DNA of 64,000 nucleotides from Burkholderia metallica (GTDB lineage: Bacteria > Pseudomonadota > Gammaproteobacteria > Burkholderiales > Burkholderiaceae): the NCBI RefSeq assembly GCF_902832845.1, contig NZ_CADFDB010000004.1:248001-312000 (forward strand). The letters are read 5' to 3'. This document shows, piece by piece, positions 28,667 through 34,517 of this stretch. A program made the position numbers and the translations under genes. Position 1 is the first letter of the stretch, and each line of letters begins with the position of its first letter. Below the pieces are notes generated by a model. That model did not search any database. It was not told the origin of the DNA and worked only from the letters and a program-made list of their open reading frames with translations.

Positions 28667-28716
<50 letters not shown>

Positions 28717-29205: not shown

Positions 29206-31701
29206 TCATTTTGTCGTCATTTTTAAGTACAACTTCAACTGCCGCGCAAAATATTCATCTTCTTTGAAGTGCTTAATTCCGAAATTTATGCATTCTTTGA
29301 GTTTCTCTGCTGTTTCGGTATCTTTCGGTTTCGCCTGGCAAATTCTAATGAGATATCCGCAGATAGTTGCAGTCGGATAGGGATCGGAGATTCCTCTTCT
29401 AAGGCGCTCATATTCAAGGTATTCTAAACCCTCCACGAGCAGTTCGCGATCGTTGAACTTTTCGTGTATATACTTTGCGACCAAGGCTACCCCAAGTGAA
29501 TGCCTCGTCTGGAAGGAATCGTAGAAATCCAAGCCGGTTCTGAAGCAATCAATTGCATCGTCGAAACGACCAATTTTTCGATAGAAACGTCCGAATTGCA
29601 GCCAGAACACTCCGTCCTGACCATACAATTTCTGTGCATGGTGGTATACTCGTTCGGCATCATTCTTTCTCGTTTGGTATGGAAAATATTGTTCGTAGAG
29701 GAAATCGAAAGAAATTATGCTTTTGTAAAATTGATAAGGAAGTGGATGATATTTGATGTCCTCGACAGTGAATTTGTTGGATAAATATTCAAGAATGTCG
29801 AGAATCTGCTCTTGCGTGCCATTTTGCGCGATACAGTTTTCAAAATAGCAATCCGCGATCACGCGATGCCGGCAGGTAAGTACTCCGCGCGACGCAAAGT
29901 CGACAACTATTCCGGAAAGATTTGTGGCAATTTGGTGCTCGATATCCGGGACGGTGATGTTCGTTATTCCCGCCACATAGTTGACGGGGACGGAGAATCC
30001 GAGGTGATTAAGGATTGCGACGACGCTGAGTATGGATTTCGCATTTTTGTCTTTAACGGCATGATACTCGTTGAAGATCTTTGTCTCGAAATTCTCGTGA
30101 GTTGTAAGGGAGTATAGGGCGGAAAGCAGATCTCCATTGAATCCGCGCTCCCGGTTCATCAAGGTGCCGGCCTGCTTTTCAAGTGATAATTCTGAAAAGT
30201 CTCCCAATTTGATGGCGTGGTTGCTAATTCTGGTGCAAATTGACTTTGCATCTTCGTATGTCAATGACCCAAATTCAAAAATTGCTGGATCGGCTTGAAC
30301 GTCGGGCAGGTGGCGAGAATTAACTTTGAAGTCGTAAATTCTATCCTCAAGGATAAATAGACAGTACGACCTGATTTTCTCCTGGAGATCGCGCGCGACG
30401 GAGTTGATTGCGTAATAGAACTCGGCGGCGCTATAAAATACAAAGACGGCCTTTGATTTGTCTGAAAATCCGGAAATTATTGATATGAACTTGTTGATAT
30501 CGATACCATTTGACGAGCCGTACTCGTAAATGTATGGGTATTTATCTGCGATGCTAAGAAGGGCTGACCGAATGCCGGTGGTTTTCCCTGATCCGCTGGG
30601 GCCAATTATGTGCATTAGGCCGATCCCTTCGCTCGCATTTGAAAGTGTGGTCGAAATAAATTGCGTAAGCTTTTCGATGCGAGGGGTTTTTGCGTGTGCG
30701 TCGTTGGTGATGTAAAACCACTCCGGATGGGCGCCAGTTACGAAGTGCCGCAAAATTCCGGATTCGTTGTGCGACTTTTCTATCGATTGTAGGATCGGAC
30801 TGAAGGCCTCTTTGAACCAAGTCATTGCCCCGACCGATGCGAATTTGGCTTTCACAGCAGGAATGGATTCAAGTACCAAGTCAGCAATCTTTTTCGGGCG
30901 TAGGTGCCTGTATATGACACTGAAAAATTCTTCGGCCGTCGCGTCGATTACGCAATATCCCGCCTCGACATAATTTTCTTTTTTTATGGCATCGGGGGCT
31001 GGCATAACAATCCAGTTGCTGGCGGATTTATCTGAAGTGCCGTAAGTTTCGCTGCGTCGCGAAAGGTATGTGTCAATGTCTGACTCATCCAGCTGGTTTC
31101 CAATAACTACCAAGCCGCCAAGCAGCATTCGCGCCGCAAGTTCGTTGTGCCAGTCAAAGAGTTTGTTTGCGGCGATCGCATATTCAAGATTGGAGAAAAT
31201 AAATCCTTTTTCTAGCTGCTCAATCGTTCCATGAATCGCTACAACTGGGGTGCTGCCTATGACGTTTGAGGCCGAAGCTTGATCGCAATAATTGAAAAAT
31301 TCAAATTCGGCAGACGTCAGCCCGCGCGCTTTGCACGTTTGATGGGCAACATTTAAAACGTTATCGATGTTGGTCGTATATATACGATTCCAAACGTACT
31401 GGAAAATTTTCTCTTGCCACGGTTCGGCTTTATCAACAATAAAAAAGTCGCGCAGGTAATTGCTGAAGTCTTGAATCCTTCTTGATGCGTATGTGTATGC
31501 ATCCTTTAGTGTCGTTTTGGGACCCGGCTCGACACCGCATTTGGCAAGCAATGCCTCCTTCAGACCGTCCCCGGTCGGTATCTCACCGTTGATCGACTCG
31601 TTGCGATAGCTAAATCCGGCACCAAGCAGAAGAGCTATTTCTCCCTTCTCTATAAGCGGACAGATTTGGTCTCTAATCACCTGCGCATCTTCTTCTTTCA
31701 T
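29206..31701 (-). CDS. SIR2-STAND NTPase, anti-phage type (Avs5-like)
   Basis: 831 aa in three parts. Residues 1-270 form a SIR2-like domain: LLLGAGFSYR (25-34), RIYTTNIDNVL with Asn111, VAIHGTIEQ with His157, and LVVIGNQLDESDID. These are the NAD-binding and catalytic positions of defence SIR2 enzymes, which deplete NAD+ on infection. A P-loop domain follows, with Walker A IGPSGSGKTTG (366-375) and a hydrophobic strand AVFVFYSAAEF (418-428) in place of a clear Walker B aspartate. From about 680 the repeats FWLQFGRFYRKIGRFDDAID look TPR-like and would sense a phage protein. This order matches SIR2-STAND/Avs5-type proteins. Codon use is AT-rich, unlike the flanks, indicating transfer. Confidence 0.82.
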   Translation of the reverse strand: MKEEDAQVIRDQICPLIEKGEIALLLGAGFSYRNESINGEIPTGDGLKEALLAKCGVEPGPKTTLKDAYTYASRRIQDFSNYLRDFFIVDKAEPWQEKIFQYVWNRIYTTNIDNVLNVAHQTCKARGLTSAEFEFFNYCDQASASNVIGSTPVVAIHGTIEQLEKGFIFSNLEYAIAANKLFDWHNELAARMLLGGLVVIGNQLDESDIDTYLSRRSETYGTSDKSASNWIVMPAPDAIKKENYVEAGYCVIDATAEEFFSVIYRHLRPKKIADLVLESIPAVKAKFASVGAMTWFKEAFSPILQSIEKSHNESGILRHFVTGAHPEWFYITNDAHAKTPRIEKLTQFISTTLSNASEGIGLMHIIGPSGSGKTTGIRSALLSIADKYPYIYEYGSSNGIDINKFISIISGFSDKSKAVFVFYSAAEFYYAINSVARDLQEKIRSYCLFILEDRIYDFKVNSRHLPDVQADPAIFEFGSLTYEDAKSICTRISNHAIKLGDFSELSLEKQAGTLMNRERGFNGDLLSALYSLTTHENFETKIFNEYHAVKDKNAKSILSVVAILNHLGFSVPVNYVAGITNITVPDIEHQIATNLSGIVVDFASRGVLTCRHRVIADCYFENCIAQNGTQEQILDILEYLSNKFTVEDIKYHPLPYQFYKSIISFDFLYEQYFPYQTRKNDAERVYHHAQKLYGQDGVFWLQFGRFYRKIGRFDDAIDCFRTGLDFYDSFQTRHSLGVALVAKYIHEKFNDRELLVEGLEYLEYERLRRGISDPYPTATICGYLIRICQAKPKDTETAEKLKECINFGIKHFKEDEYFARQLKLYLKMTTK

Positions 31702-31773
31702 AGTCGTTCGGCAAAAAAATGACAGTCGGGTTCTTCCTGCCAAGGATATCACTCGGGGCACGCGGGCCGGCAG

Positions 31774-32109
31774 CTTTCCGTTACGGGGCAGCTGGCGGGT
31801 GTGTTGGAGCGTATTCGTGACCGGAAGAAGGGGTATAAGGTGGTCAGTACCGCGCTGGTGGTGAATGAGGCCGGCGAGCGGTTGATGGCTGACGCGCTAC
31901 GGTTTCGGTTCGATCGCGCGCGCGAGCTTGCTGGCGTGCCGAAGGACGCCTTTCAGTTTCGAGATCTCCGGGCAAAGGCGGGGACTGACAAGACTGAGTC
32001 GGCAGGCGATATTAGGGCAGCACAGCGTCAGTTGGGGCATAAGTCGCTTGCGATGACCGAGCACTACGTGCGTGAGCGTAAAGGCGATAAGGTTGACCCG
32101 ACCAAGTGA
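31774..32109 (+). pseudogene. C-terminal remnant of a phage-type tyrosine integrase
   Basis: About 110 codons. The catalytic C-terminal pattern is clear: QFRDLRAKAGTDK (Arg), AAQRQLGHKSLAM (His) and TEHYVRERKGD (nucleophile Tyr). Homology-like sequence begins around LSVTGQLAGVLERIRDRKK with no start codon. The N-terminal arm-binding and core-binding domains, and the first catalytic Arg region, are missing. The break lies just after the 5' end of the SIR2-STAND gene, so that gene probably replaced the rest. It was most likely the enzyme that inserted the island; it should be inactive now. Confidence 0.8.
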
Positions 32110-32116
32110 GGGCGAG

Positions 32117-32323
32117 ATGGTGGAAAGACTTAATGACGCGGGGCGGCAGGGCGAGCTGCGAGAGCTATTTCGCCGGGCGGACGCAATATCACGATTGGAG
32201 GGCTACGAGCCGAGTGAGTTCGAAGCGGAGTTGAAGGAGCGGCTGGTTGTCGGTGAAATTGATTTTGACGAGTTTTTGCGACTAATGATCGCATACGTAC
32301 GCGATGCCAAGATGTTGAAATGA
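32117..32323 (+). CDS. VbhA-like antitoxin-domain protein (orphan)
   Basis: 68 aa, acidic and helical, starting 7 bases after the integrase remnant; GAGGGCGAG lies just before the ATG. The segment ADAISRLEGYEPSEFEAEL followed by VVGEIDFDEF resembles antitoxin VbhA, which blocks Fic-family AMP-transferases by inserting a (S/T)xxxE(G/N) motif in the active site. Here the motif region reads ISRLEG, so Ser is one place closer to Glu than expected. No Fic gene lies in the island. It may be a leftover, an anti-toxin shield, or a protein that merely shares the fold. The family is called from memory of its pattern. Confidence 0.6.
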   Translation: MVERLNDAGRQGELRELFRRADAISRLEGYEPSEFEAELKERLVVGEIDFDEFLRLMIAYVRDAKMLK

Positions 32324-32385: not shown

Positions 32386-32720
32386 CGGTGAGTTGTTTTT
32401 TCCGAATTCTTGGGGTAGATTCGTGCGAACTAGGCGTATCGCCTAGGCTGTCTGTCTTCTGTAAGTCGTTGGTCGTTGAACGGAAAATCTGGGTCTCGCA
32501 TGAGACGTTCTGCTTGGTTTTTTCAAGTCAGGACATGACCGGGATGCCGGTCCGCTGATCGGGCTCGTAGCGCTGTCTGCTGCGGCTAGGATTGGTGGCT
32601 GCGTCTAGCTACGGTTGATGAGCAAAATGCGTAGGCACCTGAGCCACGGTGAGTTGTTGTTTCCGTTCCTCTGTTCGGTGGTGGGCTGTCGGGACTCTGA
32701 GCCCGACATAACCCGAATGG
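32386..32720 (+). ncRNA. Candidate retron msr-msd RNA region
   Basis: A 400-base non-coding gap upstream of a retron-type reverse transcriptase, dense in hairpins: 32430-32436 with 32440-32446 (7 bp, 3-base loop), 32493-32497 with 32502-32506, 32537-32542 with 32547-32552 (6 bp), 32595-32600 with 32642-32647, and 32687-32693 with 32702-32708 (7 bp). A long-range 8-bp pair, TCGGGCTC (32559-32566) with GAGCCCGA (32699-32706), could be the a1/a2 stem. TAGC directly after it (32568-32571) would offer the branching guanosine at 32570. The last local hairpin and the a1/a2 pair exclude each other. Position and structure fit an msr-msd, but I cannot fix its borders. Confidence 0.5.
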
Positions 32721-32730
32721 AGGATGTTTT

Positions 32731-32922
32731 ATGCGAAAGCGTAAACCAAAGACGACGATCGGCAGCGCTCGCGTTGCCAAGAAGGCGAATGTTGGAAAGC
32801 GAGAGTGGACCAATATTGTAGATGGCGCTAACCGTTGGCTCGGCATCGCCGCCCTGGTTTCCAGGTGTTGGCTGCTGCTGGAATCTTTGCCGTGGGATAA
32901 GATTCACCATCTCATTAGGTAA
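32731..32922 (+). CDS. 63-aa basic/hydrophobic peptide of the retron cassette
   Basis: An excellent Shine-Dalgarno GGAGG (32719-32723) stands 7 bases before the ATG, the best in the island. The N terminus is strongly basic (MRKRKPKTTIGSARVAKKAN), and the second half has a hydrophobic segment WLGIAALVSRCWLLLESL that could be a membrane or amphipathic helix. It ends 5 bases before the reverse transcriptase start, so translation is probably coupled. I recognise no family. Retron effectors are often toxic proteins encoded next to the reverse transcriptase, so this is a candidate effector or accessory. It could instead be a nucleic-acid-binding helper. Confidence 0.6.
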   Translation: MRKRKPKTTIGSARVAKKANVGKREWTNIVDGANRWLGIAALVSRCWLLLESLPWDKIHHLIR

Positions 32923-32927
32923 AGTAG

Positions 32928-34118
32928 GTGTCTACCTTTTTTTCTGTTATGCGGCCGTATTACACGAAAAAACCGATCGGTACCACAGCCGCCTTGGCAT
33001 CGGCCTTGCGCGTGGCGGAACCTGTTCTGAGGCACGCCGCGAATAACTTGGATCGGCATTACACGCCATACCTGATACCGAAAGGCGACGGCAAGCAGCG
33101 TGCGATTGTTATTCCAAGTTTGCATCTAAAGACAATTCAGAAGCGCATTAATCGTGAGATTTTTTCTCATATCGAATATCCGCATTATTTGTACGGCGGG
33201 ATCGATGGGAAGGACTATGTTCGAAATGCGGGGGCTCACAAGGATAGGCATACTATCATTGCGCTAGACGTAAAGGATTTTTATCCGTCTATTACGTTTG
33301 AACGCGTTCTCGGGATTTATCAGCATTTTTTGAAATTTAGCCCCGAGGTAGCGGAGTTGCTCGCTAAGCTTACGACATTCAACAAGAGAGTTCCTCAAGG
33401 GGCTTGTACGAGTTCGCATTTGGCGAATTTGGTCTTGCATGATGTTGAGTACCATGTGGTCCAGTATTGCGAGAATGCTGGTCTAACGTATACGCGATTG
33501 TTGGACGACATTACTGTTTCGTCTCCTAAGCCATTGCCCGTACAAAGAGTGTCGAAGATCATAGAAATGATTTCGAAGATGTTGAAGGGCAAGGGTTTAC
33601 GTCTAAAGAAGCCGAAGACGCGCGTTTCATCAAAGTCGAATCCGGAAAGCCTAATGGAGGTGACGGGGCTGTGGCTTAATCGTGGCGCTCCGCGGGTGAA
33701 TTCGGCGACGCGCCGAGCGATTCGGGTCGAGGTGTATCAGTGCAAGCAGGCTGCAGCGACAAGCAGAACGAGTCTGGACTATCACAAGAAGCACGCTAGC
33801 GCGTCGGGTAAGGTGGCAATGCTCAATTATTTGATGCACGCCGAGGCCGGCCGGCTGCGGAAGACTTTGGCGGACATTCTGCCGCTATACGATGTGAGCG
33901 AAATGACTAAGACGCGGAAGATCGTCGAGATGCTCAGTCGCGCGTCTGTTGCTGACCGAGGAAAATATTCGTTTAGCCTGAGTTATTTCAAAACTATGCA
34001 GCGGCTGAACATCGTGGCGCGGAGTGACGCTGCGTTGGCCCACAGTTTGAGGCGCAAGCTGCTGGTCTGTAAGCCCACGAAACCGTCTAGTGCGACGTTA
34101 TATGACGAACCTATCTGA
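32928..34118 (+). CDS. Retron-type reverse transcriptase
   Basis: 396 aa from a GTG start with AGG eight bases before it; an ATG at 32949 lacks a ribosome-binding site. The reverse transcriptase blocks are ordered: YLIPKGDGKQRAIVIPS (48-64), retron motif X NAGAH (100-104), IIALDVKDFYPSI with Asp114 (110-122), VPQGACTSSHLANLVL (155-170), the catalytic LLDDITVSS with Asp193 and Asp194, and the retron VTG motif EVTGLWLN (244-251). NAxxH and VTG are the hallmarks that separate retron enzymes from group II intron ones. The usual YxDD tyrosine is Leu191. The C-terminal thumb, which recognises the cognate msr RNA, is basic. The enzyme should make msDNA from the upstream RNA. Confidence 0.87.
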   Translation: MSTFFSVMRPYYTKKPIGTTAALASALRVAEPVLRHAANNLDRHYTPYLIPKGDGKQRAIVIPSLHLKTIQKRINREIFSHIEYPHYLYGGIDGKDYVRNAGAHKDRHTIIALDVKDFYPSITFERVLGIYQHFLKFSPEVAELLAKLTTFNKRVPQGACTSSHLANLVLHDVEYHVVQYCENAGLTYTRLLDDITVSSPKPLPVQRVSKIIEMISKMLKGKGLRLKKPKTRVSSKSNPESLMEVTGLWLNRGAPRVNSATRRAIRVEVYQCKQAAATSRTSLDYHKKHASASGKVAMLNYLMHAEAGRLRKTLADILPLYDVSEMTKTRKIVEMLSRASVADRGKYSFSLSYFKTMQRLNIVARSDAALAHSLRRKLLVCKPTKPSSATLYDEPI

Positions 34119-34320
34119 TGAAGTGTGCTTCGGCACGGTGAAGGCCTATTACCCGTTTAAGGGTTTTGGCTTCATCACGAGAGAGAAGGGGAAGGATGTG
34201 TTCTTCTACTTTCGCGATGTGAAGGATGAGTCCGACGTTTTTGAGGGGGCGAAAGTAAAGTTCGTCTTGAGCGCTGGCCAGAAGGGGCCCTGCGCGAAGC
34301 AGGTGGAGCGCATCGGGTAA
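34102..34320 (+). CDS. Cold-shock-domain protein of the retron cassette
   Basis: 72 aa, one OB-fold cold-shock domain: GTVKAYYPFKGFGFITRE carries RNP1 (KGFGFI) and GKDVFFYFRDV carries RNP2 (VFFYF against the usual VFVHF). It starts at ATG 34102, inside the last codons of the reverse transcriptase (17-base overlap), so the two are translationally coupled. Typical CspA proteins bind single-stranded RNA or DNA. Here it probably binds the msDNA or its RNA, or is the effector. I recall that one published retron type has a cold-shock partner, but the type number must be checked. Confidence 0.85.
   Translation: MTNLSDEVCFGTVKAYYPFKGFGFITREKGKDVFFYFRDVKDESDVFEGAKVKFVLSAGQKGPCAKQVERIG

Positions 34321-34437: not shown

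Positions 34438-34517
<80 letters not shown>

Follow-up and report, generated by a model that had tools for sequence, protein, structure and literature searches.

What does a 63-codon open reading frame (ORF) do between the leader RNA and the reverse transcriptase (RT) gene of a retron? The question is raised by a 64,000-nt stretch of Burkholderia metallica DNA (the window; contig NZ_CADFDB010000004.1, positions 248,001–312,000), in which a sequence-only reading had proposed a retron with three frames for a small peptide, an RT and a cold-shock protein. All three are present as that reading described them, and the element itself belongs to a known kind, the type V (Se72-like) retrons, which are RT-based phage-defence elements; it is located in a tRNA-integrated defence island. 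Comparison with related loci shows that the 63-aa ORF codes for a conserved protein and lies nested in the retron RNA. Its product, here called SP_V, may be what halts the infected cell.

An ORF of 57–73 codons ends shortly before the RT gene in all 21 distinct type V loci examined that hold upstream sequence, and both alternative frames contain stops in 20/20 loci tested. We assessed coding in five close pairs by re-placing the observed nucleotide changes of each pair at random sites. This creates a stop in 58–91% of the copies of the small ORF, and the 102 amino-acid changes seen compare with 121.7 expected (0/2000 re-placements as low), a result on which a non-coding reading of the ORF was rejected. 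The sequence-only reading had let its proposal hang on conservation of the frame among RT relatives and had suggested looking for a constant gene order with purifying selection; the frame and the order are kept, and amino-acid changes are fewer than expected. Synonymous change is lowered as well in 5/5 close pairs, with the proportion of changed synonymous sites (pS) at 0.19–0.39 in the small ORF versus 0.58–0.90 in the RT gene and 0.51–0.93 in the cold-shock-domain (CSD) gene, which two RNA helices described below, P1 and P2, can account for. Identity to the SP_V of the window is 70% in Ralstonia, 43% in locus L005 and 4–22% elsewhere.

The reference models that we searched leave out this protein, which we read as an overlooked one. 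None of 20 small type V proteins matches any PADLOC model at E-values up to 10, Pfam and NCBIfam give nothing better than 0.02, and PHROGs nothing better than 0.06. DNA of the small ORF is found in 28 of 5426 complete Escherichia coli genomes, in 27 of them on plasmids, and in none of these 28 records is an annotated feature at the match the small ORF itself. An Edwardsiella plasmid does annotate the ORF, as hypothetical.

The leader RNA noted earlier is real and longer than first described, running from about position 32421 through the 63-aa ORF to about 32948. It folds with a minimum free energy of −211.9 kcal/mol (z −4.43 versus 100 shuffles), and its part upstream of the RT (msr plus putative msd, the reverse-transcribed stretch) carries conserved elements, among them GACCG and an element R1 that by exact search for both lie 70–80 nt apart in 15/20 loci (77 nt in the window). 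This spacing is close to the 72 in the name Se72. By comparison across loci, two long-range helices join the ORF to the rest of the RNA. In P1, an arm starting 87–119 nt before the ORF start pairs with an arm at the ORF stop, where it begins between −3 and +9 from the stop. The longest uninterrupted helix is 7–14 bp in 20/20 loci, in 17 distinct sequences, and P1 forms in free folding with mean pair probabilities of 0.60–1.00 in all 20. Tested against shuffled arms, P1 falls below 0.05 in 13/15 representatives, with a Fisher value of 4.9e-19 over 20 loci, close relatives included; this value and those for P2 take related loci to be independent and so err on the optimistic side. The same geometry at other genes reaches 5/100 or less in 0/10 RT and 2/10 CSD genes. 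In locus L001, a repeat search picks up the P1 arms as an inverted repeat of 17 nt with 82% complementarity. An RNAalifold consensus over whole alignments did not recover P1 between the arms, and one alignment pairs the 3′ arm locally, because the variable ORF aligns poorly, and so the pairing was tested in each locus separately.

In P2, the stretch of leader that directly follows the 5′ arm of P1 pairs with codons in the middle of the ORF. The best leader–ORF duplex spans codon 32 in 19/20 loci, with L021 as the exception, and by longest helix P2 lies at codons 28–38 in 16/20. Over 15 representatives, the Fisher values are 3.6e-7 versus synonymous recoding, 1.8e-6 versus codon permutation and 5.5e-9 versus leader shuffling, and 6, 4 and 8 representatives, respectively, are individually below 0.05.

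Between the 5′ arm and the small ORF lie R2, a second copy of R1, and a hairpin H; R1 itself sits just before the 5′ arm. An exact common word of 7–9 nt is shared by R1 and R2 in 17/20 loci, at p below 0.05 in 13 of them. This word is of the GTCTGGC/GTCTGGT type in 15 loci, TGATGAGC in L001 and GTAGGCG in L004. The exact word is absent from L005, L010 and the window, where the copy is imperfect and the repeat in itself not significant. No clear hairpin H is predicted in L012, L015 and L011. The ribosome-binding site, or Shine–Dalgarno (SD) sequence, of the small ORF is predicted to be buried in the folded RNA. Its mean unpaired probability is 0.24 versus 0.38 in leader-shuffled controls, and it is less exposed than the control mean in 16/20 loci; in the window the value is 0.00 (0/40 shuffles).

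In 20/20 small proteins, the hydrophobic maximum over 17 residues falls in the C-terminal half, with means of 1.25–2.14. The usual transmembrane cut-off of 1.6 is exceeded in 12/20, and clustering of hydrophobic residues beats permuted order in 8/20 at p 0.05. Many small proteins outside the branch of the window have an alternating hydrophobic start (FIINININV...) and a stronger hydrophobic segment at the end, while those of the window, Ralstonia and L005 start with a polar stretch that is basic in the window and Ralstonia. Ahead of the hydrophobic part, the window and L001 proteins carry a net charge of +9. The earlier description of a basic/hydrophobic peptide fits the version in the window, and this basic, moderately hydrophobic form is one end of a range. 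The AlphaFold2 model of the window protein has a low-confidence helix at residues 10–52. In an E. coli variant (L046), an in-frame 6-base insertion lengthens the N-terminal I-N alternation.

Table 1. Features of the retron locus and its island, in window coordinates
Feature	Positions	Strand	Basis or remark
Left 50-bp repeat (copy of tRNA-Met end)	28667–28716	.	identical to 34438–34487
Structured retron RNA containing the small ORF	32421–32948	+	conserved with L001 and L005; folding
5′ hairpin CTAGGCG-TAT-CGCCTAG	32430–32446	+	pairs invariant in window, L001 and L005
Hairpin GTCTCGCATGAGAC	32493–32506	+	predicted fold
Hairpin starting GACCGG, just before putative msd	32537–32552	+	hairpin pairs; GACCG upstream in 16/20 loci
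Putative msd (reverse-transcribed stretch), variable sequence	32543–32630	+	inferred from GACCG–R1 spacing
Element R1 (GGTTGATGAGC)	32613–32623	+	
P1 5′ arm (GTAGGCACCT)	32631–32640	+	pairs with 32926–32935, probability 0.91–0.98 per pair
P2, leader side	32641–32646	+	pairs with 32836–32841 inside ORF in predicted fold; 13 bp in L001
Element R2 (CGGTGGTGGGC), imperfect R1 copy	32676–32686	+	exact 9-nt word in L001
Hairpin H (TGTCGGG...CCCGACA), before ribosome-binding site	32687–32708	+	hairpin in L005 and L001 too
Ribosome-binding site TGGAGG	32718–32723	+	predicted paired with 32668–32673
Small protein gene SP_V (63 aa)	32731–32922	+	conservation, coding selection; TGGAGG before ATG
P1 3′ arm (AGGTGTCTAC), directly after ORF stop	32926–32935	+	pairs with 5′ arm
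Type V retron RT	32949–34118	+	PADLOC RT_V, phylogeny, fold matches; GTG 32928 alternative start
Cold-shock-domain protein CSD_V	34102–34320	+	PADLOC CSD_V 1.2e-25; GTG 34090 alternative start
Right 50-bp repeat	34438–34487	.	overlaps tRNA-Met(CAU) 34441–34517 (−)

The earlier claim of a retron with RT and cold-shock protein is borne out, and comparison with published retron types, which the same reading had called for, gives type V by the PADLOC models RT_V and CSD_V. The RT scores 344.7 bits with RT_V (1.8e-103), 239.6 with RT_VI and 239.0 with RT_IV, the third-best model, and matches Pfam RVT_1 at 3.2e-21. Its AlphaFold2 model has a predicted local distance difference test score (pLDDT) of 88.1, with the retron RTs Ec86 and Eco2 as top fold matches in the PDB. 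Together, the RT_V and CSD_V matches and the retron-RT folds identify a type V, Se72-like retron. In the best RT tree, the branch of the window is unresolved among types IV, V and VI, and a single type V clade is not rejected by the approximately unbiased test (p-AU 0.464); an RT outside the retron clade, which would have spoken against the proposal, is not what the phylogeny gives. All residues invariant across 10 aligned type V RTs are kept in the window. The catalytic motif is RL[LIV]DD in 10/10 of these RTs (alignment A1); YxDD is the usual catalytic motif of retron RTs.

Comparison of starts puts that of the RT probably at ATG 32949 (MRPYYTKK...), which is common to the window, L001 and L005 in the alignment. 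GTG 32928 was considered and rejected, since reading from it meets a stop in L001 and does not stay in frame with the RT in L005. The 5-base gap described earlier between peptide and RT holds for the GTG start and becomes 26 bases with the likelier ATG. The 17-base overlap of RT and cold-shock genes is likewise right for ATG 34102, and would be 29 with GTG 34090. The CSD gene stands beside the RT in 18/19 distinct loci with downstream sequence, window included.

Relatives were collected by seeking RT_V in overlapping sets of 398, 300, 398, 369, 194 and 148 genomes at limits of 1e-60 to 1e-90. Matches were found in 8, 2, 4, 2, 2 and 2 genomes, numbers that count the own genome in each of the first four sets; judged by their genes, 4, 2, 4, 1, 2 and 2 are type V and the rest type VI or IV. 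Further RT matches came from plasmids (153 records, 30 of them over at least 80% of the query) and phages (44 records), and further loci from genome contigs (one) and IMG/VR (23, by alignment query). Single-protein queries found no relative among the viral contigs, where the alignment query worked. Of one set of 34 matching plasmid records, seven were examined. The closest RT relative found is that of Ralstonia sp. NFACC01 (72%), and a genome from the host's own family also has an RT match at the same identity. Near-duplicates were left out (L002, equal to L001; L013, near L011; L014, near L015; L029, near L028), as were from the counts the E. coli copies L045, L046 and L048, L030 and L031 (no upstream sequence), L007 and L033 (type IV by RT model), L032 and L035–L044 (other or distant RTs) and, as type VI, L006, L008, L009, L019 and L034. 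Although L008 scores 234.3 with RT_V versus 226.2 with RT_VI, it was put in type VI for its HTH-like (helix-turn-helix) gene and a small-protein gene that shares 65% identity with its L006 counterpart. SP_VI matches are found in L006, L019 and L034, and an HTH_VI match in L006. Some IMG/VR type V retrons (L024, L026, L027–L030) lie just before a phage gene, as prophage cargo; we take this gene to be a P2-like baseplate gene V.

In relation to known systems, the locus shares with Retron Sen1 (Se72) the RT_V family (best by ∼100 bits), a cold-shock gene that follows the RT and, ahead of the RT, a repeat-flanked ORF. The enteric plasmid type V copies have RTs ∼35–38% identical to that of the window over most of the length. 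It differs from Se72 in that the window and Ralstonia RTs form a deep separate branch, with a basic small-protein N-terminus and R1/R2 sequences of their own. The title of the Se72 paper names self-priming. In PMC6868368, an ‘ORF’ before the Se72 RT is mentioned, and the conserved priming G after arm a1 and the 2′–5′ linkage are reported absent. Activation of Se72 and Ec48 upon RecBCD inhibition is reported in PMC12409349 and PMC10732053, the latter with a Se72 growth arrest by unknown means.

Type VI retrons combine RT_VI, HTH_VI and SP_VI. Their small protein, too, has a hydrophobic end and is encoded ahead of the other genes, with arms at its stop and an R1/R2 repeat and hairpin before the SD, and the type V ORF occupies the place that the accepted SP_VI has in type VI. 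The sequence-only reading knew of no retron with an extra peptide between RNA and RT; type VI retrons have the accepted SP_VI. The type VI loci were first used as a control for the arm test. Shuffles as good as the SP_VI stop arm number 2, 1 and 3 of 100 in L006, L008 and L019, where the arm is clear, 13 in L009, where it is weaker, and 38 in L034, where it is not, so that 3/5 loci are at or below 5/100. In 4/4 type VI loci tested (L006, L008, L009 and L019), an R1/R2 repeat (p 0.000–0.050) is followed by a predicted hairpin. The differences are that P2 is found in 1/4 loci tested (L019), that an HTH partner takes the place of the cold-shock protein, and that the small proteins are unlike in sequence; filing the type V protein under SP_VI by sequence was rejected, with 0/20 matching the PADLOC models.

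Type IV (Ec48) has a neighboring RT family. The Ec48 effector is a two-transmembrane (2TM) protein at the inner membrane, and the type differs from type V by this larger hydrophobic protein downstream of the RT, which we see in L007 and L033. Ec48 is also reported, in the papers cited above, to share its RecBCD trigger with Se72. A further likeness is to hok, a type I toxin–antitoxin mRNA with a small hydrophobic protein, long-range 5′–3′ pairing and a buried ribosome-binding site. Unlike in hok-like mRNAs, an RT and its DNA product would replace the antisense RNA, and the likeness is one of design, not descent.

The joint explanation that we consider best, and whose chances we put as about even, is that the small hydrophobic protein arrests growth as the effector, a toxic role that the sequence-only reading had also suggested for the peptide, and that its translation competes with reverse transcription in a shared folded RNA. 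The RNA would be reverse-transcription substrate and locked mRNA at once. P1 would bring the 3′ side of the RNA next to the msd, which would suit self-priming. A ribosome on the ORF would have to open P2 and at the stop would cover the 3′ arm of P1, so that translation and reverse transcription would exclude each other. RT and cold-shock protein would keep the RNA/DNA complex off until phage attack on RecBCD disturbs it, and the small protein would then act as growth-arrest effector, probably at the inner membrane, like the 2TM of Ec48. The steps from locked message to effector are those that we infer. A further-reaching version, unlikely as a whole in our judgment, would make type V and VI retrons RNA switches in which a toxin mRNA is also primer-template and an overlooked small membrane toxin is freed upon RecBCD inhibition. 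DNA copied from R1 would be complementary to R2 beside the buried ribosome-binding site and could open the site. Se72 is reported to make double-stranded DNA, and RecBCD would normally destroy such linear DNA; on its inhibition by phage the DNA would build up, the message would be freed and the small membrane toxin turned on.

Several results weigh against a small-protein effector in a locked RNA. The SP_V of the window is only moderately hydrophobic: its best 17-residue mean is 1.57, and that segment contains an Arg. AlphaFold2 models the protein poorly (pLDDT 64.5; predicted template modeling score, pTM, 0.30). Protein-level constraint is mild: dN/dS is 0.40–1.03 in four more distant pairs, so the protein diverges fast, and in the coding test 2/5 pairs are individually below 0.05, with no constraint for L027/L028 (p 0.49). 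Burial of the SD fails in 4/20 loci. P1 is below 0.05 versus downstream windows of the same locus in 7/15 representatives and not in the window (45/200), and the repeat search did not report the P1 arms in the window or L005. P2 is below 0.05 against none of its controls in the window (40, 11 and 15 of 150 for recoding, permutation and leader shuffling), and by longest helix it lies outside codons 28–38 in the window, L018, L027 and L028. Finally, the small ORF is intact beside a broken RT in L045 (IS200/605 in the RT) and L048 (truncated RT), and in L005, where the RT is split over two frames, possibly by a sequencing error; the RT is therefore not simply a constitutive antitoxin.

The strongest competitor, which we find credible if somewhat doubtful, holds that the cold-shock protein is the effector and the small protein a regulatory or structural partner, remodeling the retron RNA by its translation or binding RT, RNA or multicopy single-stranded DNA (msDNA) so as to hold the effector. 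In NCBI, the cold-shock protein bears the name ‘retron Se72 family effector protein’, and a 2026 preprint (PMC13405049) counts cold-shock proteins among retron effectors. These too count against a small-protein effector, and the retention of the ORF beside broken RTs, its strong coupling to the RNA (pS, P1 and P2) and the strongly basic N-terminal half of the window version (+9, as in L001) would fit a partner. However, the protein is more than a translated leader, as frame and amino-acid sequence are both under selection, and its hydrophobic maximum is C-terminal in every one of the 20 proteins. The CSD gene is missing in 1/19 loci (L004), where the small ORF is present, and the nearest solved structures to the CSD protein are ordinary cold-shock proteins.

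The constrained synonymous sites and helices P1 and P2 would also be expected if the stretch were conserved as retron RNA only and the open frame were incidental and not expressed as protein. We regard this as extremely improbable: the frame is kept in 21/21 loci against stops in both other frames in 20/20, random changes give stops and more amino-acid changes than observed, the L046 variant differs by an in-frame insertion, and the RNA-embedded type VI counterpart is a recognized protein family. Nor do we give much credence to the view that the island is degenerate, the arrangement decayed or due to chance and the genome without a working retron, which seems very unlikely. The island integrase is a 102-aa fragment, the RNA region is single-copy in the genome by genome search, and the RT of L005 is split, yet the RT and CSD genes of the window are open, the RT keeps its invariant residues and the RNA elements are in place.

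The island that holds the retron spans 5.8 kb between identical 50-bp repeats of the tRNA-Met end. It also encodes an 851-aa protein (29206–31761, −) with SIR2-like, nSTAND_NTPase5 (STAND-type NTPase, just below the cut-off) and weak TPR matches, which by these similarities is probably a second defence gene. The integrase fragment is the C-terminal part of a phage-type enzyme and overlaps a VbhA-type antitoxin gene (31801–32109 and 32072–32323, +). Within the retron, GTAGGTGTCTACC followed by Ts between ORF and RT resembled a terminator, and this candidate was dropped as the 3′ arm of P1. Rfam reports no retron RNA family in the region, and a sigma-70 scan gave five sites, all on the minus strand. 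A 19-nt direct repeat (18/19 identical) has its copies at the start of the RNA region (32386–32404) and just after the 5′ arm (32647–32665), 261 nt apart; the same search did not find it in L001 or L005. By exact search, CTCTTTA words occur at the RNA start, before the msr hairpins, in 9/20 loci (L012, L015, L011, L024, L016, L022, L023, L025 and L010), none in the branch of the window; we presume a resemblance to the boxA antitermination element.

In the literature searched, we found no small type V protein beyond the Se72 ‘ORF’ of PMC6868368; Mestre 2020, Millman 2020, Bobonis 2022, Rychlik 2001 and Pilousova & Rychlik 2011 were outside this scope and could describe one. Within the databases and literature searched, what is new is the evidence that the small protein is conserved and coding, the way its gene is woven into the RNA, and the resemblance to type VI. 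A conserved small protein in the retron RNA is a concrete effector candidate for type V, connects translation, reverse transcription and the RecBCD trigger in a testable way, and ties retron types V and VI together. Cloned type V retrons would have carried the small gene unnoticed, and tools made from such RNAs would carry it too.

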